A stretch of DNA of 64,000 bases from Crocinitomicaceae bacterium (GTDB lineage: Bacteria; Bacteroidota; Bacteroidia; Flavobacteriales_D; Crocinitomicaceae): positions 1-64,000 of the forward strand of contig JAGOBK010000006.1 in NCBI GenBank assembly GCA_017983465.1. The letters run 5' to 3'. Shown here in pieces: positions 2,943 to 13,060 of the stretch (position 1 is its first letter; each line of letters starts with the position of its first letter). The notes under the pieces were generated by a model. That model was not told where the DNA came from, searched no databases, and was given only the letters and a program-made list of their open reading frames with translations. The translations under genes and the position numbers were made by a program.

Positions 2943-5468
2943 TTGACCAAAAGAACATTGATACAACAACTTTTCTTCGTCACATTGTTAATAATGTGCA
3001 ATTCGTCTGTGGTTACAGCCCAGGACACCTTGTTTGTCAATGACTCAAGTATGCAGAATATCATCACCTATTCAGCGGATGAACGAATTTTAAATGATGT
3101 TGACAAAAAACAAGTCCATTTGTACGGAAATGCAAGGGTCGAAATGGAAGGACTGCTAATCACCGCAGGTTATATTTTATTGGACCTCAACGCGAACGAA
3201 ATTTGGGCAAAATACCGCTACGATAAAGACAGCAATAAAGTGGAGTTCCCGGTGTTCACCGATGGAGGAGAATCAGTGACTTGTCACACCTTGAAGTTTA
3301 ACACCAAAACAAAAAAAGGATTTTTAGAAGAATTAGCCATTAAGCAGGATGAATTTTATTTCCACATGGAAACTGCGAAACGACAACCGAACGAGGAAAT
3401 ACACTTGGTGAAAGGACGCCTAACTACTTGTGATTTGGATGAACCGCATTACCACTTTCAATTGAGTAAAGGAGTAATTGTTCCGAACGAACGCATTGCA
3501 ACTGGACCTATGAATCTTTGGGTGAATGGAATTCCAACTCCGCTCGGATTACCCTTTGCATTTATACCAACGAAGGAGCAAAAATCAAACGGTTTGTTAT
3601 TTCCGGAGTTCGTTCCTTTATCGAATTACGGATTTGGTATTCAAAATTTAGGTTATTACATTCCAATCAACGATCAATTGCAAACTGCTGTCTATGCAAA
3701 CTTGTATAGTCGAGGTTCATGGGGCTTGCGAAACGACCTAGATTACTCCAAGCGTTACGGATTCTCCGGTCGTATTTCGGTTGGATTCCAGCAATTTAAT
3801 TTGGGATTTCCAACAAAGGACAAAAACAATAAACTAAGCATACAATGGTCGCACAGAAAAGCGCCAAAGTCAAATCCATATTGGAGTTTTTCATCGAATG
3901 TGAATTTCATTTCGGATAACACAGCAAAAAATAACTTAGACCCGATTAATCCTGAATATTTCACCAATTCATTTAATTCGGATATTAACATCAATCGATC
4001 ATTCCCGGGGAAACCATTCAATATGGGTATGAAAATATCCATGCGTCAAAATTCCATCGCGAAAAACATTGCCCTGGTGAGTCCAGTGTTAAATGCCAAT
4101 CTTACACGTGTATTTCCGTTTAAAAACACCTTTAAAGCAAGTGATAAAAATTGGAAAAAGACCATTGAACGCATAGGAATCACGTATAACTTCGAAGGAC
4201 AAAACAGATCAAACTTTTCTGATCAACTATTATCTGTCGGTGATTTTAATGGTATTTCGCAACAATTCATGAATGGATTCTCGCAATCGATGTCCATTCA
4301 AACGACTAGTGGACTATTTGGAAATGCCATCAAGATAAATCCATCCGTCAATTATGGAAATAAAATCAACTTCCAACAGATTCAAAAGTTCTACGATCCT
4401 ACCGCGAATAAGTCTCAAAATGACACCTTGCAACAATTTGGAATGGCTCATGAAGTCAATTTCAGTATGAGCATGACCAGTGTTATTTATTCTTATTATC
4501 AATTTGTCGGCAAGAACAAACCAAAATTGCGTCATTTAATTACGCCTTCTGTTGGATTCCGTTACGTCCCGCAGTTAAATGAGTTAGCACAAGCAAATGT
4601 TGGAGTCAATCAATCTTTGGTGAAGTATTCTCCGTTTGAAAATTCCATCTATAGCGTCGGGAATAATCAAAAAGCAGCATTATTGAATTTTGGGATCAAT
4701 AATACCATGGAGTTAAAAGTGAAGTCAGACAAAGACACCTTGACTGGATTTCGTAAAATTCGTTTGATCGATCAATTGTCCATCAATGGAAATTATGATT
4801 TCATGAAGGATTCCATGCGTTTATCCAATCTTTCTTTGAACTTGAGAATTAGTCCAGCGGATTGGATCAACTTTGTTTCTGGCGCAAATTTTAGTCCATA
4901 TGCTTGGGATGCGAGCACAGGGAAAACAACCAAGGATTATGCATTCTCAAGTCAGCAAGGACTCGGTCGTTTTATTTCATCGAATCTCACCACTTCCATT
5001 ACGATTGCGCCGAAAAAAACACGTGAAAAAGTCGCAAACAGTACTTCAACGGTCAATGAGCAAAATTGGAATTCGGAGTTTAATTATTATGCTTTGCATC
5101 CTGAGCGTGCCATTTACTTCGATATTCCCTGGAAAATGAGCTTGTCTCATGTGTATACAATCAATGTGAATCAAAGTATTTCTAGCACGAATCCAGCTAA
5201 AAATATTTTTGCCCAAACACTAGTGGTCAGCGGAGATGTGAGCATGACAAAAAGATGGAATGTATCAGGGAACTTGAATTTTAATGTGCAAGAATTCCGC
5301 TTGACAAATGCTTATTTTTCCTTGAATCGAAATTTGCATTGTTGGGCCTTGTCTTTCTATTATGTACCGGTTGGTGGAAATAAAAGCTTCTTGTTTAGCA
5401 TTCGCAATACTTCTTCGATATTTAAGGATGCGAAGATTGAAATCAGGAAACCACCGGCATTATTGTAA
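2943..5468 (+). CDS. lptD: LPS-assembly protein LptD (OstA family)
   Basis: This 841-residue outer-membrane protein should insert lipopolysaccharide into the outer leaflet. A signal peptide ending near VVTAQ is followed by an OstA/LptA-like periplasmic domain (about 40-165; YSADERILNDVDKKQVHLYG region) and then by a long beta-barrel of alternating aromatic strands reaching the C-terminus. The length suits Bacteroidota LptD. I place the start at TTG 2943 because an in-frame TAA lies at 2931, and the first in-frame ATG (about 2994) would remove most of the signal peptide. It is divergent from the amidase gene and its stop is three bases from the convergent yihY-type stop. Confidence 0.85.
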   Translation: MTKRTLIQQLFFVTLLIMCNSSVVTAQDTLFVNDSSMQNIITYSADERILNDVDKKQVHLYGNARVEMEGLLITAGYILLDLNANEIWAKYRYDKDSNKVEFPVFTDGGESVTCHTLKFNTKTKKGFLEELAIKQDEFYFHMETAKRQPNEEIHLVKGRLTTCDLDEPHYHFQLSKGVIVPNERIATGPMNLWVNGIPTPLGLPFAFIPTKEQKSNGLLFPEFVPLSNYGFGIQNLGYYIPINDQLQTAVYANLYSRGSWGLRNDLDYSKRYGFSGRISVGFQQFNLGFPTKDKNNKLSIQWSHRKAPKSNPYWSFSSNVNFISDNTAKNNLDPINPEYFTNSFNSDININRSFPGKPFNMGMKISMRQNSIAKNIALVSPVLNANLTRVFPFKNTFKASDKNWKKTIERIGITYNFEGQNRSNFSDQLLSVGDFNGISQQFMNGFSQSMSIQTTSGLFGNAIKINPSVNYGNKINFQQIQKFYDPTANKSQNDTLQQFGMAHEVNFSMSMTSVIYSYYQFVGKNKPKLRHLITPSVGFRYVPQLNELAQANVGVNQSLVKYSPFENSIYSVGNNQKAALLNFGINNTMELKVKSDKDTLTGFRKIRLIDQLSINGNYDFMKDSMRLSNLSLNLRISPADWINFVSGANFSPYAWDASTGKTTKDYAFSSQQGLGRFISSNLTTSITIAPKKTREKVANSTSTVNEQNWNSEFNYYALHPERAIYFDIPWKMSLSHVYTINVNQSISSTNPAKNIFAQTLVVSGDVSMTKRWNVSGNLNFNVQEFRLTNAYFSLNRNLHCWALSFYYVPVGGNKSFLFSIRNTSSIFKDAKIEIRKPPALL

Positions 5469-5471
5469 GAA

Positions 5472-6374
5472 TTACTTGATGCCTTGTCCGGTCATCTTCC
5501 CAACCACATACGTGAATTTTGCTCCAAGGAAGACGATTTGTGCCGAATAGTGCACCCACGCTAAAGTGACAAACAGTGAATTTGCGATTCCGATTTTCCC
5601 AAGTACAAAATAATTTTGCAAGTAGTAGTTGATCATAAACTGACTGAGCACCAATAAAATGGAAGTGAAAATGGCGCCCTTGAAAGCGACATTCCATTGG
5701 ACTTTTGCATCGGGAATAAACTTAAATACCAAGGTGAAAATCATTAAGTTACTACCAATGGTCAAGATGTTCTGCAGCACAACAAGTGAAAAATCAACAA
5801 TGCCACTATGGTAATGATTCCAATTTTGAATGGCAGAAAAAATAAACACTTGGGCAAAATAAAAGAGGATGATAATCAAAGCGAAAACAGCGAGTAGTCC
5901 CATCGAAATAAATCGAAAGCCGATGATGTCCATGAATAAATTCTCTTCGTGTCTATTTTTCTTGGTAACCATAAAGAACTCATTCAAACTTCGTTTCAGG
6001 GATACAAAAAAGGCGGAACAGCTGTAAAGAAGAACGCCAACACTGATCATTTCAAAGAAAAAACTGGGTTTGTGCAGGGACATGCCGTTTACAACCTCCA
6101 TGATGGAAGAACTATCCTCCATGCCCATCTGATTTCGAAGTAAATCAGAAACCATTTCTTTCATGTTCTTCGGACCAACGATTCGACCAAAGATTGAACT
6201 CGTTAAATAAATAATAGGAATAAACGCAAATAGGGTGTAATAAGCCAGTGCTGCGCCATGATAAAATGCACCATCTCTAACATAGGTAATGAGGGCTTCT
6301 TTAAAAGCTGTGAATCCCCAGTACCAATTAAGTTTACTGCGTTTTTTTAACGATTTCGATTCCTCTGGTGTCAT
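5472..6374 (-). CDS. YihY/BrkB-family inner-membrane protein
   Basis: This 300-residue integral membrane protein has about six transmembrane segments. The family-typical GAALAYYTLFAFIPIIYL stretch lies near residues 40-57, and LAWVHYSAQIVFLGAKFT lies near the C-terminus. The YihY/BrkB family is widespread and its molecular role is unsettled; the old RNase BN label should not be used. ATG 6374 lies inside the 3' end of the upstream ABC ATPase gene, a 41-base overlap, and no better internal start exists before the first membrane segment. This implies coupled expression and makes it the last gene of the six-gene minus-strand run. Confidence 0.85.
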   Translation of the reverse strand: MTPEESKSLKKRSKLNWYWGFTAFKEALITYVRDGAFYHGAALAYYTLFAFIPIIYLTSSIFGRIVGPKNMKEMVSDLLRNQMGMEDSSSIMEVVNGMSLHKPSFFFEMISVGVLLYSCSAFFVSLKRSLNEFFMVTKKNRHEENLFMDIIGFRFISMGLLAVFALIIILFYFAQVFIFSAIQNWNHYHSGIVDFSLVVLQNILTIGSNLMIFTLVFKFIPDAKVQWNVAFKGAIFTSILLVLSQFMINYYLQNYFVLGKIGIANSLFVTLAWVHYSAQIVFLGAKFTYVVGKMTGQGIK

Positions 6375-7263
6375 TTAAGCGTTCAAATTGATAAAGTACA
6401 ATTGTTTCTCCAGATGCTGTTTGAAAGTAGTTGTGGTAGAGTCCACCAACAAAAATACTACGAATAAATTCAACGGGAAGAGCATCCTTCGCTGAAGATA
6501 CTTGGTATTCATCCGGACGAAAAAGAATGGTTTCATCTCCCAATTTCATCGCATTCACGGGTCCAAAAAGACGGGCTTGATGAATATTGGAATAATGGTA
6601 GTATAAAAATTCAGGCTTGTATTTTTTACTCAAAGTTCCATTTTTCAATATGCATATGCAATCGCATAGTCCAAGGACATCTTGACCCTCATGGGAAACC
6701 AAAATGATGGTGGTATTTTCTTCTTCTCGCAAGCGAATTAAATGCTCGGTTAGCCGTGCTCGTAAATTTGCATCCAAGTGACCGAATGGTTCATCGAGTA
6801 ATAAAATTTCCGGTTGATCAGCAATCGCTCGGGCAATTGCCAAACGCTGTTGTTCTCCCCCAGAGATTAGATGTGCTTTGGTTGCTGAAATGGATTTAAG
6901 GTCAAACAAGCGCAATAATTGTTGAACGCGCTTATCACGTTTGTGATTTGGCAAATGCAAAACAACTTCACGTAGATTTTCTTCCACCGTATGGTAAACA
7001 TCTAACTTGAAGTCCTGATTAACCATAGCAACGCCCTTGAATCCGGGTATCAACAATTGATGAACGCGCGGTTGAACTTGTTGATCGATGGAAATCTCAC
7101 CAGTATCTGGATCAATGAGTCCAGCAATGATTTTTAATAAGGAGGATTTTCCAGCGCCACTCTTTCCAACGAGACCGAGAATTTCACCTTGAGCAACGGT
7201 TAAATTTGCCCGTTTGATAATGGGTTTATTGTAGGATAATTGTATGTTTTTTAATACAATCAT
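6334..7263 (-). CDS. ABC transporter ATP-binding protein, orphan
   Basis: The protein has 309 residues. The ATPase domain (about 1-225) shows Walker A GKSGAGKSS, signature ISGGEQQRLAIARA, Walker B ILLLDEP followed by FGHLD, and the switch His in LVSHEGQD. The last 80 or so residues (about 230-309) form a beta-rich extension resembling the TOBE-like regulatory tail of importer ATPases such as ModC or PotA; that comparison is by eye. No permease or binding-protein gene is adjacent, so substrate and direction are unknown. ATG 7263 overlaps the preceding stop by four bases (ATGA), and the 3' end overlaps the YihY/BrkB gene by 41 bases. Confidence 0.88.
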   Translation of the reverse strand: MIVLKNIQLSYNKPIIKRANLTVAQGEILGLVGKSGAGKSSLLKIIAGLIDPDTGEISIDQQVQPRVHQLLIPGFKGVAMVNQDFKLDVYHTVEENLREVVLHLPNHKRDKRVQQLLRLFDLKSISATKAHLISGGEQQRLAIARAIADQPEILLLDEPFGHLDANLRARLTEHLIRLREEENTTIILVSHEGQDVLGLCDCICILKNGTLSKKYKPEFLYYHYSNIHQARLFGPVNAMKLGDETILFRPDEYQVSSAKDALPVEFIRSIFVGGLYHNYFQTASGETIVLYQFERLNDTRGIEIVKKTQ

Positions 7264-7691
7264 AAACGAATTAATTCTTTTGGGAACGATTTTGCTGCAA
7301 TGAAAATTCCTGGAGTTGGATTGGACATTGGTTCGTAATCTTTCAAGAAGATTTCAATCGTATAAGTTTCCTCCGTTTTATTAAACGTTGCAGATGAAAC
7401 AATGCTTTCTGAAGCACCTACATATACGTTTGGCGCGTCCGAAGAACTGATTTCAAATAAATGCATGTTTGGAATGTCGAATTGAAAAGCTTCATTGTTC
7501 TCATTCATTCCTGCAAGTGGATAAGCCACATCGGATAATTCTGTCACCGAAGTTACATCACTAGAAATAGATAATTCATCCTCCCATTCGTATTTGATGT
7601 TGTCAATGGATTGATTCCCTTCATGCTCTAAATCAGCTAATTCTTGTGAATATAAATCGTTTAGAAGGTAAATGTGGATCTTACAGTTCAT
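7260..7691 (-). CDS. Hypothetical protein, 143 aa
   Basis: I do not recognise this protein. It is acidic, has no clear signal peptide or membrane segment, and reads as mixed alpha/beta, with an Asp/Glu/Ser-rich stretch (about 20-55) and an amphipathic strand near TYTIEIFLKDYEP. Its reality is supported by position: ATG 7691 overlaps the LETM1-related gene's stop by four bases, and its own stop overlaps the ABC ATPase start by four bases. Such back-to-back ATGA junctions are unlikely for a spurious frame. It may be a cytoplasmic partner of its neighbours, but this is inference from gene order only. Confidence 0.65.
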   Translation of the reverse strand: MNCKIHIYLLNDLYSQELADLEHEGNQSIDNIKYEWEDELSISSDVTSVTELSDVAYPLAGMNENNEAFQFDIPNMHLFEISSSDAPNVYVGASESIVSSATFNKTEETYTIEIFLKDYEPMSNPTPGIFIAAKSFPKELIRL

Positions 7692-8968
7692 TTTTTGTCG
7701 TTGTTTTTTTCTATTTCATTCACTTTGAAGGCGGATGGCATTAATTCAGGGACAAGTTTAAGAATTAAAGGGAGAAGTAAGCTTCCTCCGGGTAAAAGAA
7801 ATAGTGCCAGTGAAGGCATTGTCTTTATTAAATCGAGGAATTGTGTGCGTACTTGTTCTTTTTCCTCTGCACTTAATTCTTCTTTGGTCGATTTCTGTAT
7901 CAAGGACATCAATTCCTTGCTTTCGCGCATTTCTTGAACCAGTTTATCTTTATTTCGACCTAAGATTCGAATCCACCGCTTGCTGAAAGCCTTAAAAACG
8001 TAACCGGTTTCCGTTTCTGATTGAAAAACGAGAATTTCATTCTGGTTCTGAAGCATGTAGGCATTACACATTTCAATGGACTCTTGAATTTCGGTACTTG
8101 TTAAATCAAGCGCTTGTCCGAGTGACGCCAATTTTTTTTGTTCCTCTTCATTCGGTTGATGTGTTCCTTGAATGAGAAAAAGTCCGAGTTCAACCGTAAA
8201 TTTTGAAAGTAATTTATCGACGACGTGTTCCTTTTTTAACACGCGAAGTGTGACGCCGGTCAATATCCTATTTTCAAAACGTAATTTTTTTGATTTTTCG
8301 AGTTCTGTTGAAGCTAAAAAGTGCCACAAGACTCGTTGTTCTTTATCTTCTGCGTTATCATCGGTATACGCCGCATAGATCATCCCATTCATCAGGGAAC
8401 TTGCGTAATCAGCGTAATGACGGGAAAAGGATTGAATGTTTCCCTCTAAAAAAGCGCGGTATAAAACGACATCGAGAAAAATAAAGGCGTTTGAAAGATG
8501 ATTCAACCAATAATTTGCACCAAAAAAAGTACTTTTTACTTGAATGCGGTGCGCCAATATTTCTTCGATGCTTTGATTGGTTTTTCCCGTAAACATTCGA
8601 TCAAACCACGCGAAAACACCGCCATCTTTAGTGTTGCCATAAAATTCGATGAGGTTTTCCATGAAAGCATCTTTATCGAATTCGCCTTGGTTTTTTCTCA
8701 GATAGGTAAACAACAAGGTCTCAAAAAGGAGCAATTTCAGTTTTTCATCGTTCGTGTATTTCGATGAGTCTAGTTCGTTTGTAAACAACAGGTGTAACGC
8801 ATTTCCATAGACAAGTCCTGTTCGATGCGATACAAAATGTGTTAAGTCTGTTTCCTTCGTTTGAATGAGCTCTAAATCCAAGGAAATGACTCCTTTTTCC
8901 AATAATTGAAAAAACTTGGGAATCCAATTTTTGGACCCGGGAGATATGCTGTTCTTAAGGGAGGACAT
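7688..8968 (-). CDS. LETM1-related protein (biofilm-associated type)
   Basis: This 426-residue protein ends in a LETM1-like segment: LALFLLPGGSLLLPLILKL followed by VPELMPSAF (about residues 385-416) matches the LETM1 domain signature seen in mitochondrial ion-homeostasis proteins. The rest is largely helical. Flavobacterial homologues carry the label LETM1-related biofilm-associated protein, which I recall but cannot verify here; the biochemical role is unknown. The frame could extend to TTG 8986, but ATG 8968 gives a normal N-terminus and overlaps the upstream barrel gene by 14 bases. The stop overlaps the next start by four bases (ATGA). Confidence 0.78.
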   Translation of the reverse strand: MSSLKNSISPGSKNWIPKFFQLLEKGVISLDLELIQTKETDLTHFVSHRTGLVYGNALHLLFTNELDSSKYTNDEKLKLLLFETLLFTYLRKNQGEFDKDAFMENLIEFYGNTKDGGVFAWFDRMFTGKTNQSIEEILAHRIQVKSTFFGANYWLNHLSNAFIFLDVVLYRAFLEGNIQSFSRHYADYASSLMNGMIYAAYTDDNAEDKEQRVLWHFLASTELEKSKKLRFENRILTGVTLRVLKKEHVVDKLLSKFTVELGLFLIQGTHQPNEEEQKKLASLGQALDLTSTEIQESIEMCNAYMLQNQNEILVFQSETETGYVFKAFSKRWIRILGRNKDKLVQEMRESKELMSLIQKSTKEELSAEEKEQVRTQFLDLIKTMPSLALFLLPGGSLLLPLILKLVPELMPSAFKVNEIEKNNDKK

Positions 8969-9416
8969 ATCGTGCTGCAAGTCCAATGTTCCAACCCAAA
9001 CTTAATCTTGGAATGATTTGTAAGTATGGTCCTGACTCAAGTGCGAAGGTAAACGGGTAATCAGGAAGTTTATATTCCACACCAATGACTCCATTGGCTC
9101 CTAACATAAATCGATCGTTTGCAGAATTTTGCATGATGGGATTTCCTGAAACAATTCCTAATCCAGGTCCTACTCCAAAATAATAATCAACATCATCCAC
9201 CAATGGATGTTGCCACTCGTAATTCCCCTGCATCCATATATAGTTCGTACTACCACCCAAACTTACTTCAACGGCGTTGTTTTCATTCAGAAAATGCTTT
9301 CCATTGATTTGAGTAAAACCTAAACTCGCGAATTTTAGTCCAACAGAATTGGTATAACGCTGACCGAAAAGTGTCAAGGTAAAGAATAGGCTACATGAGA
9401 GCAAGAATGGTTTCAT
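8955..9416 (-). CDS. Small outer-membrane beta-barrel-like protein
   Basis: This 153-residue protein starts with a clean signal peptide (MKPFLLSCSLFFTLTLFGQ). The mature part is rich in alternating hydrophobic and aromatic strands, such as YYFGVGPGLGIV and the closing WNIGLAARYVLP, as expected for an eight-stranded outer-membrane barrel. No specific family is recognised. It starts 18 bases after the lamin-tail gene's stop and overlaps the LETM1-related gene by 14 bases, placing it second in the six-gene run. A structural or small-ligand role in the outer membrane is possible; function is not known. Confidence 0.72.
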   Translation of the reverse strand: MKPFLLSCSLFFTLTLFGQRYTNSVGLKFASLGFTQINGKHFLNENNAVEVSLGGSTNYIWMQGNYEWQHPLVDDVDYYFGVGPGLGIVSGNPIMQNSANDRFMLGANGVIGVEYKLPDYPFTFALESGPYLQIIPRLSLGWNIGLAARYVLP

Positions 9417-9434
9417 CGTTTTGTTTTTACAAAG

Positions 9435-12029
9435 TTACAATTTGCCAGCTAGAGTAAATGGGATTTTTTTTGCTAAAATAACAGCTCCATCAACAGAGAA
9501 AACTTCTATGACCAATACGTAAATTCCTATTGGTGCTTTTGCTTGCTTTGTATTTACACCATCCCAGGTGAAAAATCCAGTTGTCCCCATTAATTCATTG
9601 GAGAAAAGCACTTTCACTTCTCTTCCGAAGTCATCAAAGATTCTTGCTTTTGCTAATAATCCACTTTCTGAAAATGCATAATTGACCACAAGAATATCTT
9701 CAAATCCGTCTTGATCTGGTGAGAAAACATCTTTTTGTAGGCTAATCGATTCGCTTGTTCCTACGTATTGATATTGGGAGTTCACCCTTCCAGGTGTGGC
9801 AAAACCAATCGATTCAGCAGCAGAATGCCAATTGGATGTTTGATTAGAGGAAGCATTTGGTGAGATGCGCTCCAAACTAACACCGTCCGAATTATCGATC
9901 AAAGATAATTGCCAATCTTCCGAATAGGAAACACGGTCGATTTGTTCGCTATTGTAAAATAAATAAATCGTTCCAGAATCGATATTATAACTTGGCATAT
10001 CCATTTGAATCATTCTTCCAGAAATACTTGCGGGATAATTCTCGAGAAGAAAACTAGTGTCTTCACTGATGGCAACATAGGAATTGGGCTCCAAAATAAA
10101 GTGATTCGAAATCGTTTTTAAATTGGAAATGGTATCGTTGTCATAATTCGCGATTTGCCAGTCCTTCAAATCAATCACTTTCGTTGAACGGTTGTATAAT
10201 TCAATAAAATCTTGTCCACCATTCAGTGGATTCGCTAGAATTTCGTTAATGACGATATCGCCTGCTTGCGCTTGTTCCGGCAGGGTGAATTGACCGATGA
10301 ATGTCGTGTCATTTTGCCAACAATCACTCACGGGTCCAAGTTGAATTTGATACGTAGTAGATGGAAGGAAATTCTCGTTGAATTGTATGATGAACTGAGG
10401 TGGTCCGTTTGGATTATCGTTCACCACTTGAATAAAAGTTTCTTGAACACTTAAATTAGGACTCGCACTAATTTGAGTATTTGCAAGGCTAATCGAATCC
10501 ATTCCTTCAGAAAAAGATACTTCCAAGAAGTTTGGACTCAAGGCAATGAGTGAAAGCAAATTTGGATTTTGGTTATCCGGTGCAGCGCTGAAAATGGAAT
10601 TGATTGTTCCTGGAGATCCTCCTGATGGATCATTCGATGCGGACCAATTATCGTAGTTTGAACAGGGATCGTTTAAATTAATTCGCTCCAAACTATAGCC
10701 ACCTTCTTGTTTAGTTGGATCTTGATACCATTCGTCCGTGTAGGTCAATCGGTCGAGGAGTAATCCAGTTTGATCAGTTAATATCAGTTGATCCCCAGCA
10801 TTGTTTAAGCTTGGGAAACTTGTAACTCCCGCAACATTGGTAAATAGTCCGAAGTTTGCATTGGCCGTCAAAACAATATAAGAACCAGGCAGTAACCAAA
10901 AATCACCGATGGTACCATTGGAGGAACCATCACTGATTGTCCAGTTTTGTAAATGAAAAACCTTTCCAGTTTTATTGAAAATCTCTACATATTCCACTTC
11001 TGGAAGTCCGATGACTGGCGTAGGATCAGCGAAAAATTCGGTAATGATTACATCTCCTTTTTCGGCGGTATCCGCTACCAAATAATCAAAACTCGCCGCT
11101 TGATTACCGCTGGTATTTCCAACTAAATCGGAGAGGTTTGCCGTCATTATTGAATACGAATTACCATTTGTCAGTGGAAACATGGTCGTCAAATGCACCA
11201 ATGCTTGATTCACGTTGTCTTGTTGCGCCGTAACAAACGAGTTAAAGGGTAAAATAGCATAGTTTGCGACTTCATTGGCTGATGTTGGACTGAGTGCCTC
11301 GTTAAATAATACATCGACTTGATTTGGAGTAATAACGGAAGCTTGAAGTAAGATCGGGGCTTGAAGATCTAAAATTGGATTGCCAATATAGACGTCATCT
11401 AAGTAGAATTTATTCGCATTACTCGAGGTGTAAGTGCACAAATAGCCAAAATAAGATCCAGAGAGAATATTCGGGTCATTTGCACTTCCTTGAAGGACAT
11501 AATTGGTTCCACCGCTTAGATCTGCGGATAATTCCCAGTTACCACTAGGGTTTAAAACAACTTTAATACCCACCGTAAAACTGTTCGAAATTTGTCCGTC
11601 AACACCTGAACATAATTGCGTAGGAATCCCATTAACCAATTTGAACAGGCGAATCGCATCAACCGCATTTGCTTCTCCAAACAAAACAAAGTAGCCATTT
11701 TGAACAGCCGTCAAATCGCTATTGTCGGCACTTAAAAAGACTTTTCCGTAATTGCTGGAGGATGGAGAAAAACTTTGCTTCACCCAAAAATGCCATTCGT
11801 GATTTTGTAAAGTGTTGATTCCATGAGTCAAGCTCAGGTATGAACTTCCTGAAATGGTATTGTTCAATTGCAACTGTTGACTAGCATTTACAGCGAACTC
11901 TGCCGTGTTTCCATTCCATGATGGATTATTACTGAAATCTCCATCTGAGAAATCATCCATGACTTGGGAATGAACATTCACCGTAGTCATCCATAAAAAA
12001 AACAATATTATTTGGGGAATCCACTTCAT
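9435..12029 (-). CDS. Secreted lamin-tail-domain (LTD) protein, possible T9SS client
   Basis: The protein has 864 residues. A signal peptide (MKWIPQIILFFLWMTTVNVH) is followed by a beta-rich N-terminal region (about 25-225), an Ig/SbsA-like segment, a first lamin-tail domain (about 320-470, beginning GDVIITEFFADPTP), another Ig-like segment, a second lamin-tail domain (about 585-735, beginning GDIVINEILANPLNG), and a C-terminal FlgD/CHU-type domain (DVFSPDQDGFEDIL and WDGVNTKQAKAPIGIYVLVI). That end resembles sorting domains of type IX secretion clients, and a T9SS is encoded at 44-53 kb. ATG 12029 is chosen over a TTG 72 bases upstream because the signal peptide starts there. It is the first gene of the minus-strand run. 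Confidence 0.8.
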   Translation of the reverse strand: MKWIPQIILFFLWMTTVNVHSQVMDDFSDGDFSNNPSWNGNTAEFAVNASQQLQLNNTISGSSYLSLTHGINTLQNHEWHFWVKQSFSPSSSNYGKVFLSADNSDLTAVQNGYFVLFGEANAVDAIRLFKLVNGIPTQLCSGVDGQISNSFTVGIKVVLNPSGNWELSADLSGGTNYVLQGSANDPNILSGSYFGYLCTYTSSNANKFYLDDVYIGNPILDLQAPILLQASVITPNQVDVLFNEALSPTSANEVANYAILPFNSFVTAQQDNVNQALVHLTTMFPLTNGNSYSIMTANLSDLVGNTSGNQAASFDYLVADTAEKGDVIITEFFADPTPVIGLPEVEYVEIFNKTGKVFHLQNWTISDGSSNGTIGDFWLLPGSYIVLTANANFGLFTNVAGVTSFPSLNNAGDQLILTDQTGLLLDRLTYTDEWYQDPTKQEGGYSLERINLNDPCSNYDNWSASNDPSGGSPGTINSIFSAAPDNQNPNLLSLIALSPNFLEVSFSEGMDSISLANTQISASPNLSVQETFIQVVNDNPNGPPQFIIQFNENFLPSTTYQIQLGPVSDCWQNDTTFIGQFTLPEQAQAGDIVINEILANPLNGGQDFIELYNRSTKVIDLKDWQIANYDNDTISNLKTISNHFILEPNSYVAISEDTSFLLENYPASISGRMIQMDMPSYNIDSGTIYLFYNSEQIDRVSYSEDWQLSLIDNSDGVSLERISPNASSNQTSNWHSAAESIGFATPGRVNSQYQYVGTSESISLQKDVFSPDQDGFEDILVVNYAFSESGLLAKARIFDDFGREVKVLFSNELMGTTGFFTWDGVNTKQAKAPIGIYVLVIEVFSVDGAVILAKKIPFTLAGKL

Positions 12030-12076: not shown

Positions 12077-13060
12077 ATGAAAGTAGCAGTTGTTGGAGCA
12101 ACAGGTATGGTTGGACATGTCATGTTGCAAGTTTTAAAGGAACAAAATTTCCCGATTACGACCTTAATCCCCGTTGCATCTGAGAAATCAGTGGGTAAGA
12201 AAATGGAATTTGGTGGACTAGAATTTGAGGTGGTTGGACTACAAGCGGCTGTGGATATGCATCCGGATATTGCCATTTTTTCAGCAGGAGGGGAGACTTC
12301 CTTGATTTGGGCTCCTAAATTCGCTGAAGTTGGAACAGTTGTTATTGATAACTCGTCCGCTTGGAGAATGGATCCAACGAAAAAACTGATTGTTCCTGAA
12401 ATCAATGGACACACATTGACCAAAGAAGATAAAATCATTGCGAATCCAAATTGCAGTACCATTCAATTGGTCATGGTATTAGCTCCTTTGCATCAACGAT
12501 TTGGAATCAAACGTGTAATTGTATCCACATATCAATCGATTACGGGTACGGGTGTGAAGGCTGTGGAACAAATGGAAAACGAGCGCGCTGGACAATCGGG
12601 AGAAATGGCCTACAAATACCCAATTGATAAAAATTGCATTCCTCAATGTGATTCATTTGAAGAAAATGGATACACCAAAGAGGAAATGAAATTGACTAAC
12701 GAGACAAAGAAAATTTTGGATCCTGCTATTTTAGTGACGGCAACAGCAGTACGTGTACCGGTTGTTGGTGGACATTCAGAAGCAGTGAACATCGAGTTTG
12801 AAAAAGACTTCAATTTGGATGAGGTTCGTAAAATTCTACATGAGACTTCCGGCATTACCTTACAAGACAATCAGGACACCTACACGTACCCAATGCCGAA
12901 ATACGCACAAGGAAAGGACGATGTTTTCGTTGGACGCATTCGTCGTGATGAAAGTCAAGCGAATTCCTTGAATTTATGGATTGTTGCCGATAACTTGAGA
13001 AAAGGTGCCGCGACAAATGCCGTTCAAATTGCTAAAATCGTGGAAGGATTACTTCAATAA
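12077..13060 (+). CDS. asd: Aspartate-semialdehyde dehydrogenase
   Basis: This 327-residue cytoplasmic enzyme reduces aspartyl phosphate to aspartate semialdehyde with NADPH, at the branch to lysine/diaminopimelate, threonine and methionine. Visible signatures are the N-terminal nucleotide-binding GATGMVGHVM, the catalytic cysteine C126 in NPNCSTIQ, the STYQSITGTG stretch and VPVVGGHSEAV with the conserved His. The length is normal. It is divergent from the lamin-tail gene with 47 bases between start codons. No gene of the same pathway is adjacent, so it is probably expressed alone. Confidence 0.96.
   Translation: MKVAVVGATGMVGHVMLQVLKEQNFPITTLIPVASEKSVGKKMEFGGLEFEVVGLQAAVDMHPDIAIFSAGGETSLIWAPKFAEVGTVVIDNSSAWRMDPTKKLIVPEINGHTLTKEDKIIANPNCSTIQLVMVLAPLHQRFGIKRVIVSTYQSITGTGVKAVEQMENERAGQSGEMAYKYPIDKNCIPQCDSFEENGYTKEEMKLTNETKKILDPAILVTATAVRVPVVGGHSEAVNIEFEKDFNLDEVRKILHETSGITLQDNQDTYTYPMPKYAQGKDDVFVGRIRRDESQANSLNLWIVADNLRKGAATNAVQIAKIVEGLLQ

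Follow-up and report, generated by a model that had tools for sequence, protein, structure and literature searches.

Do genes whose frames run into one another also work together? The question is raised by six consecutive minus-strand genes in a 64,000-nt stretch of DNA (the window) from a Crocinitomicaceae bacterium (assembly GCA_017983465.1, contig JAGOBK010000006.1, positions 1 to 64,000). The genes encode a lamin-tail (LTD) protein, a small outer-membrane β-barrel-like protein, a LETM1-related protein, a protein of 143 amino acids (P143), an ATP-binding cassette ATPase (ABC), and a YihY/BrkB inner-membrane protein (YihY). An initial annotation, made from the sequence alone, had proposed the run as a candidate for an undescribed module, with a joint function suggested to span the two membranes and the cytoplasm. 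Comparison with related genomes gave a narrower answer. What is conserved in Crocinitomicaceae is an operon of three genes whose frames overlap, P143-ABC-YihY, and the six-gene run consists of this core and a second block (LTD-barrel-LETM1, block A), two gene blocks that became neighbors in one group of freshwater bacteria.

Conservation of the P143-ABC-YihY operon

Conservation was read in 25 genomes of the window's genus, including the window's own, and in a family sample of 120 Crocinitomicaceae genomes. A set of named loci was formed from the best 80 of 140 confirmed P143 loci; G codes denote genomes and L codes denote loci of the comparison set. Within the genus sample, LETM1 was present in 23 genomes, P143 in 19, ABC in 23, and YihY in 22. 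The family sample held P143 in 101 genomes (three of them with distant relatives), an ABC orthologue in 113, and a YihY orthologue in 100, and the three genes were consecutive in 90 of the 120. Of 98 genomes with both P143 and ABC, 93 had them adjacent; for ABC and YihY, the figure was 94 of 96. These counts leave out 23 YihY rows (E 3.5e-51 or weaker, regarded as second copies), 10 ABC rows (E 1.4e-68 or weaker, including the sole row of G311), and one 20-residue P143 piece in G100. One of the dropped YihY rows (G219:C132:3-350) is a partial gene next to ABC where the contig ends, and the ABC-YihY adjacency may thus be 95 of 96.

P143 and ABC were non-adjacent in G118, G056, and G343, which hold only distant P143 relatives, as well as in G342 and G100; the last is apparently split by contig ends, with the 20-residue piece adjoining its ABC. 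Two other genes stood between ABC and YihY in G091, and contig ends lay beside the operon in G316 and G341. At the named loci, ABC came right after P143 in 78 of 80 cases, and YihY followed ABC at all 72 loci with room for it. When neighborhood conservation was checked across Flavobacteriales, as the initial annotation had proposed, the core proved to be kept within the family, but P143 was confined to it and was not found order-wide.

The surroundings of the operon varied. P143 was preceded by LETM1 at 33 of the named loci, by an RlmI-like methyltransferase at 26, by a MATE transporter at 8, and by other genes at 12, with a contig end at the remaining one. On the other side, the core closes against LptD in the window's genus, an OmpA-domain protein follows it in some members, and an XRE regulator, whose S24-like part scores 23.2 bits (cut-off 23.3), comes after YihY at 23 of the 80 named loci. 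The junctions themselves were kept: the P143 stop codon shares bases with an ATG at 68 of the 80 loci, 36 times as ATGA and 32 times as TAATG or TGATG, and at L203 this ATG belongs to YihY. Such base sharing suggests translational coupling.

Since order and overlap persist while the flanks change, the conservation of the operon points to function and not to a frozen synteny. A chance or inherited neighborhood without functional meaning would agree with the finding of all cases within one family; the order and overlap are, however, kept down to ~30-40% protein identity in changing surroundings, and we consider this explanation highly improbable.

Some minor observations belong to these loci. 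The OmpA-domain protein (~307 aa; L056:11673-12593, L067:6662-7585, L060:10174-11103) stands after YihY or ABC and adjoins LptD in several members of the genus; its domain was tested in L060 and L067, and its N-terminus appears lipoprotein-like by eye. Among cultured relatives, Taishania pollutisoli (L211) carries the operon. The operon also occurs at L143, L149, L155, L161, L168, L171, and L219, which are labelled Polynucleobacter, Chryseobacterium gleum, Sphingomonadales, Chitinophaga pinensis, or Planktophila and are probably mislabelled or misbinned metagenome-assembled genomes. A 518-aa frame in G010 (L074:577-2133) with an ABC domain in its C-terminal part was considered as a fusion and set aside as a probable assembly artefact, the start of P143 lying on another contig, cut at the contig end.

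Block A and the six-gene run

The six genes of the window and their two flanks are listed in Table 1. From LTD to YihY, the junctions comprise a gap of 18 bases followed by overlaps of 14, 4, 4, and 41, and both the open reading frame list and the minus-strand sequence reproduce exactly the values first reported; the two overlaps of 4 (LETM1/P143 and P143/ABC) are both ATGA. The interval originally given, 6334-12029, covers five of the genes but leaves out most of YihY, with which the run ends at 5472. The original gene names agreed with the domain searches, weakly so for the barrel, and P143 had no match. YihY and LptD are direct neighbors in the window. The genome holding the window comprises 2.56 Mb in 13 contigs.

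Table 1. Features of the six-gene run and its flanks in the window
Feature	Position	Strand or orientation	Remarks
Lamin-tail (LTD) protein, block A	12029-9435	minus	ATG start; 864 aa; longer TTG frame from 12101
Small outer-membrane β-barrel-like protein, block A	9416-8955	minus	153 aa
LETM1-related protein, block A	8968-7688	minus	426 aa
P143, core	7691-7260	minus	143 aa
ABC ATPase, core	7263-6334	minus	309 aa
YihY/BrkB inner-membrane protein, core	6374-5472	minus	300 aa
ATGA overlap, LETM1 stop/P143 start	7688..7691	minus	junction of block A and core; found in part of the genus
Aspartate-semialdehyde dehydrogenase (Asd)	12077-13060	divergent flank of the six-gene run	
LptD	2943-5468	convergent flank	PF19838 408.9 bits

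Promoter-like sites in the region (13 versus 18.2 in shuffled sequences) and terminator-like sites (6 versus 5.6) were no commoner than in shuffles; a transcript break inside the six-gene region is therefore neither indicated nor excluded by them.

The LTD protein carries two lamin-tail domains (PF00932 Lamin Tail, 118.2 bits, cut-off 34.3), a Big_5 domain, and a CHU_C type IX secretion signal (PF13585, 29.8 bits, cut-off 27) by Pfam. With its LTD domain and C-terminal signal, it is a predicted type IX secreted protein. The best match of the barrel, PF13505, reached 16.3 bits, under the cut-off of 28.7, and its N-terminus resembles a signal peptide by eye. Over residues 365-424, the LETM1-related protein matched the LETM1-like RBD family (PF07766, 31.5 bits, cut-off 25.3); it has one hydrophobic segment by hydropathy, at 384-407. 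It also aligns over positions 2-395 of the 396 of NF040639, named "LETM1-related biofilm-associated protein," but its score of 243.8 bits is a near miss, ~6 below the curated cut-off of 250; among relatives in other genera, one passes (257.3) and one falls short (245.3). No support for a link to biofilms was found in the open-licence literature, and the link consists of the model's name only.

Within the window's genus, block A has a regular layout, with Asd divergent from LTD, followed by the barrel and LETM1. LTD lies upstream of LETM1 at all 23 LETM1-holding loci (the window and 22 others), and the barrel was found by BLAST at 15 of them (the window and 14 of 22). Most members with both blocks have them joined as in the window. 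The blocks stand apart in five members (G004, G007, G012, G014, and G020), where other genes follow LETM1. The surroundings of L063, L070, and L072 were judged from one of the two neighborhood readings of the genus. LETM1 itself is present in 112 of the 120 family genomes, and at 20 of 20 loci from other genera neither LTD, P143, ABC, nor YihY was its neighbor, with the barrel beside it at one.

It follows that in the window's genus LTD-barrel-LETM1 forms a unit of its own, which some members have attached to the core. A single functional module of all six genes spanning both membranes could draw on the continuous overlaps in the window, on the 33 named loci with LETM1 directly before P143, and on G318, a genome of another genus outside the 20 LETM1 loci, where a single contig carries ABC and LETM1 at a distance of 5.3 kb. 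Those 33 loci, however, show the surroundings of the window's genus (LTD, Asd, LptD) where more genes are visible, and with the halves separated in the five genus members and at the 20 foreign loci we regard such a module as very unlikely. A joint function is thus supported for P143, ABC, and YihY and is not for the six genes together. The suggestion of an undescribed module could apply to these three: no description of the P143-ABC-YihY operon was found in the open-licence PubMed Central literature (subscription papers being outside the search). The ABC and YihY families are already known, and their pairing and P143 were not found described in the literature searched.

As a separate observation, genomes of genus g27 (G242, C2:142798-145171; G272; G335; G344; G347) have extra LETM1-related matches directly adjoining the first, suggesting tandem copies.

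Proteins of the operon

P143 had no match in Pfam, NCBIfam, PADLOC, or PHROGs with the window's protein, and its family profile had none among the sequences of the PDB. Searches of 299 genomes of the order (98 matches) and 395 of the phylum (2 matches) found P143 exclusively in the family. As far as the databases searched show, it would constitute a new protein family; the closest named relative, also from Crocinitomicaceae, is 98% identical. Hydropathy revealed no hydrophobic segment and inspection by eye no signal peptide; P143 is therefore probably cytosolic. An AlphaFold2 model built with 32 homologues (mean predicted local distance difference test score, pLDDT, 90.3) is mostly β, with one helix near the N-terminus, and the invariant or near-invariant positions include N11, A19, G25, N31, W36, E37, G61, G128, and P137. 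Several weak matches were discarded. The best fold match by VIA (Z 5.1, root-mean-square deviation 3.4 over 65 residues), in a list headed by ATP synthase epsilon chains, was below a meaningful level and was not used. Pfam matches of single relatives in the 32-row alignment were scattered (best E 0.0084, DUF3599), with no family in more than one member, and were taken as chance, as was a DUF7679 match of the L102 relative (16.5 bits, cut-off 27).

The ABC protein matched ABC_tran at 116.3 bits (cut-off 25). Across 27 homologues, the Walker A residues G33, S35, G36, G38, and K39, the signature residues S134, G136, Q139, and R140, the Walker B stretch L156-D157-E158-P159, and the switch histidine H191 are invariant. 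The catalytic motifs of a nucleotide-binding subunit are thus intact. The best profile matches of this domain are importer ATPases of the MalK/PotA/FbpC type (GlcV, PotA, and PhnT), which it resembles in its intact motifs. It differs from them in scoring far under what the three best models require (162.7 versus 450, 162.2 versus 482, and 155 versus 499.15 bits) and in having no permease or binding-protein gene among its neighbors in the window; none was recognized by eye in the other neighborhoods read, genome-wide pairing not having been searched. A C-terminal extension of ~90 aa contains an invariant F248-R249-P250 and is TOBE-like by reading only, with no TOBE match among the matches listed (25 of 64 Pfam families). 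The identification of ABC as a missing LptB was rejected: its TIGR04406 score of 123.7 bits falls short of the 240 required, and an LptB over the cut-off is encoded on another contig (C7) of the window's genome.

YihY belongs to the BrkB/YihY family (PF03631, 113.7 bits, cut-off 33.7, residues 33-291), whose gathering score it passes by 80 bits. Two narrower models were not reached: TIGR00765 (YihY) scored 51.6 against 73.15 bits and TIGR00766 (YhjD) 26.0 against 213.65. Hydrophobic segments indicate about six membrane helices, and the structural model (pLDDT 84.7) is all helical. A fold match to CysZ by VIA (Z 6.8, root-mean-square deviation 5.2 over 176 residues) was below the bar for helical proteins and was not used. 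YihY/BrkB proteins form a large membrane family, and their function is, to our knowledge, unsettled. One study's table gives YIHY as "UPF0761 membrane protein," with 10,144 sequences (PMC4602095).

Evidence for and against joint action at the inner membrane

What the three products might do together can be outlined tentatively. Our preferred reading, to which we give somewhat less than an even chance, is a joint mechanism of ABC, YihY, and P143 at the inner membrane. The ABC ATPase would be the energy-using partner of YihY, its ATP hydrolysis acting on the membrane protein; the two may move or release a lipid or a lipopolysaccharide (LPS)/lipid-A precursor, and P143 could be a cytosolic accessory docking on either of them. 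There is a published precedent in YhjD of E. coli. This protein, reported as a putative inner-membrane protein of five to six helices, co-purified with the ABC ATPase LptB and bound rough LPS in vitro (PMC3219608). The same report gives alleviating interactions of YhjD with lptBCFG and an accumulation of lipid-A precursor upon its loss (PMC3219608). In both cases, a BrkB-kind inner-membrane protein is found with an ABC ATPase, a kinship that rests on TIGR00766, weakly matched by the window's YihY. Furthermore, LptD, another part of LPS transport, adjoins the operon in the window's genus, which is compatible with a lipid or LPS theme. The cases differ in that LptB belongs to LptBFGC and has its gene elsewhere in the window's genome.

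The conserved operon gives YihY-type proteins a concrete, purifiable candidate partner, and whether such proteins move lipids and whether ATP can drive them becomes directly testable, in line with the published co-purification of YhjD and LptB. A bolder version, in which YihY would be the membrane domain of an unrecognized kind of ABC transporter, with ABC driving lipid flipping or extraction and the small β-rich P143 as a dedicated regulatory subunit, appears unlikely to us but merits mention. Under this version, proteins of the widespread YihY/BrkB family would move lipids and could be coupled to ABC ATPases.

The main competing explanation is that the three proteins are co-regulated and mechanically independent. 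ABC would then be an orphan importer-type ATPase for permeases coded elsewhere, YihY and P143 would act alone, and the operon would share a regulon only. MsmK and MsmX are orphan importer-type ATPases of this sort, serving permeases encoded elsewhere. We consider this explanation a real possibility, though short of probable. The importer ATPases at the head of ABC's profile matches and the XRE regulator behind YihY speak for it; the consecutive order of the trio in three quarters of the family genomes, in several surroundings and with overlapping frames, speaks against it. No ATPase-less permease was identified either, though no genome-wide search for one was made.

A number of observations weigh against a joint mechanism, of which the ABC-only lineages and the ABC-less one at the same time favor co-regulation. 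At the 11 loci read from a clade of six genera (L227-L237), ABC stands without adjacent P143 and YihY and is followed, at 10 of them, by an XRE regulator; in G016 and G018, LETM1 adjoins ABC in genomes with neither P143 nor a YihY match. Conversely, P143 and YihY overlap by four bases in Fluviicola sp. NORP3 (L203 = G209), where ABC is cleanly absent. ABC-YihY occurs without P143 in G012, G014, G042, and G312, the absence being judged by single-sequence search in G014 and by single-sequence plus profile search in G012. P143 stands with neither partner in G167 (= L205), and the order-wide search gave no P143 match in 9 of 45 genomes of the genus. With part of the trio missing from these lineages, no member of it can be strictly required by the other two, which argues against an obligate complex.

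Further points against the joint mechanism concern the proteins and their kin. YhjD is at best a distant relative of the window's YihY. Foldseek comparison with solved folds gave no match at 0.001 for YihY and none at 0.001 or better for P143 (best E 0.56). Within its family, the window's YihY is set apart by its operon with ABC and P143, and neither gene was found within ~1.5 kb of YihY at the 19 best loci from other families of the class (93 matching genomes). The arrangement of the operon facing LptD is convergent and was seen only in the window's genus. A true LptB was present elsewhere in all eight genomes tested, and the operon is therefore not the main LPS exporter.

The history of the ABC-only lineages can be read in two ways. 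In the ABC tree, G313, which has P143-ABC-YihY, is sister to the ABC-only clade with a support of 98/91, the clade itself having 94/56; gain and joint loss would both fit the ABC-only state, with deep forks open. Several loci of this clade have two genes ahead of ABC, a small unknown one and a PhoX-like one (checked against Pfam at L231 only), and four genomes of genus g17, within the clade, have a YihY of the second-copy type elsewhere.

Correlated evolutionary rates (mirror-tree) were compared at the 17 of 80 named loci that hold all six compared genes. With three control genes held out, the correlation was 0.61 for ABC-YihY (0 of 2000 permutations as high), 0.37 for P143-YihY (2 of 2000), and 0.22 for P143-ABC (71 of 2000). 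When every other gene was held out, the values became 0.58, 0.31, and -0.01, respectively. The control pairs then reached 0.64 (ABC-MATE), 0.53 (ABC-XRE), and 0.40 (P143-RlmI), so that ABC-YihY is not separated from the pairs of ABC with controls.

Finally, a role of the operon as a defence or stress-immunity module, with YihY as the membrane effector, was considered in view of the distant P143 relatives, which occur at HsdS/HsdM genes in G118 and G056 and at bSEFIR and HEPN/nucleotidyltransferase genes in G343. The operon, however, is found in most family genomes, unlike patchy defence genes. PADLOC gave no match for P143 or YihY, and the similarity of ABC was confined to the ATPase domain (best mad3, 89.6 bits). 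This role is accordingly judged highly improbable.

The distant relatives form a group of their own. They were recorded at L109:9198-9635, L102:9312-9806, and L243:7185-7619 in defence surroundings, the one at L109 being 24% identical to the window's P143. At one of the 20 loci retrieved around P143 outside the genus, L102, BLAST did not pick up the gene, which was read there directly. In G343, the relative stands beside bSEFIR and a HEPN/nucleotidyltransferase gene. In G118 and G056, it is flanked on one side by a half-length HsdS and on the other by an apparent HsdM gene; the HsdS domain of G118 was tested by domain search, and the other defence-neighbor calls in these two genomes were made by eye. 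The small protein between the S-half and M may be of interest in its own right.

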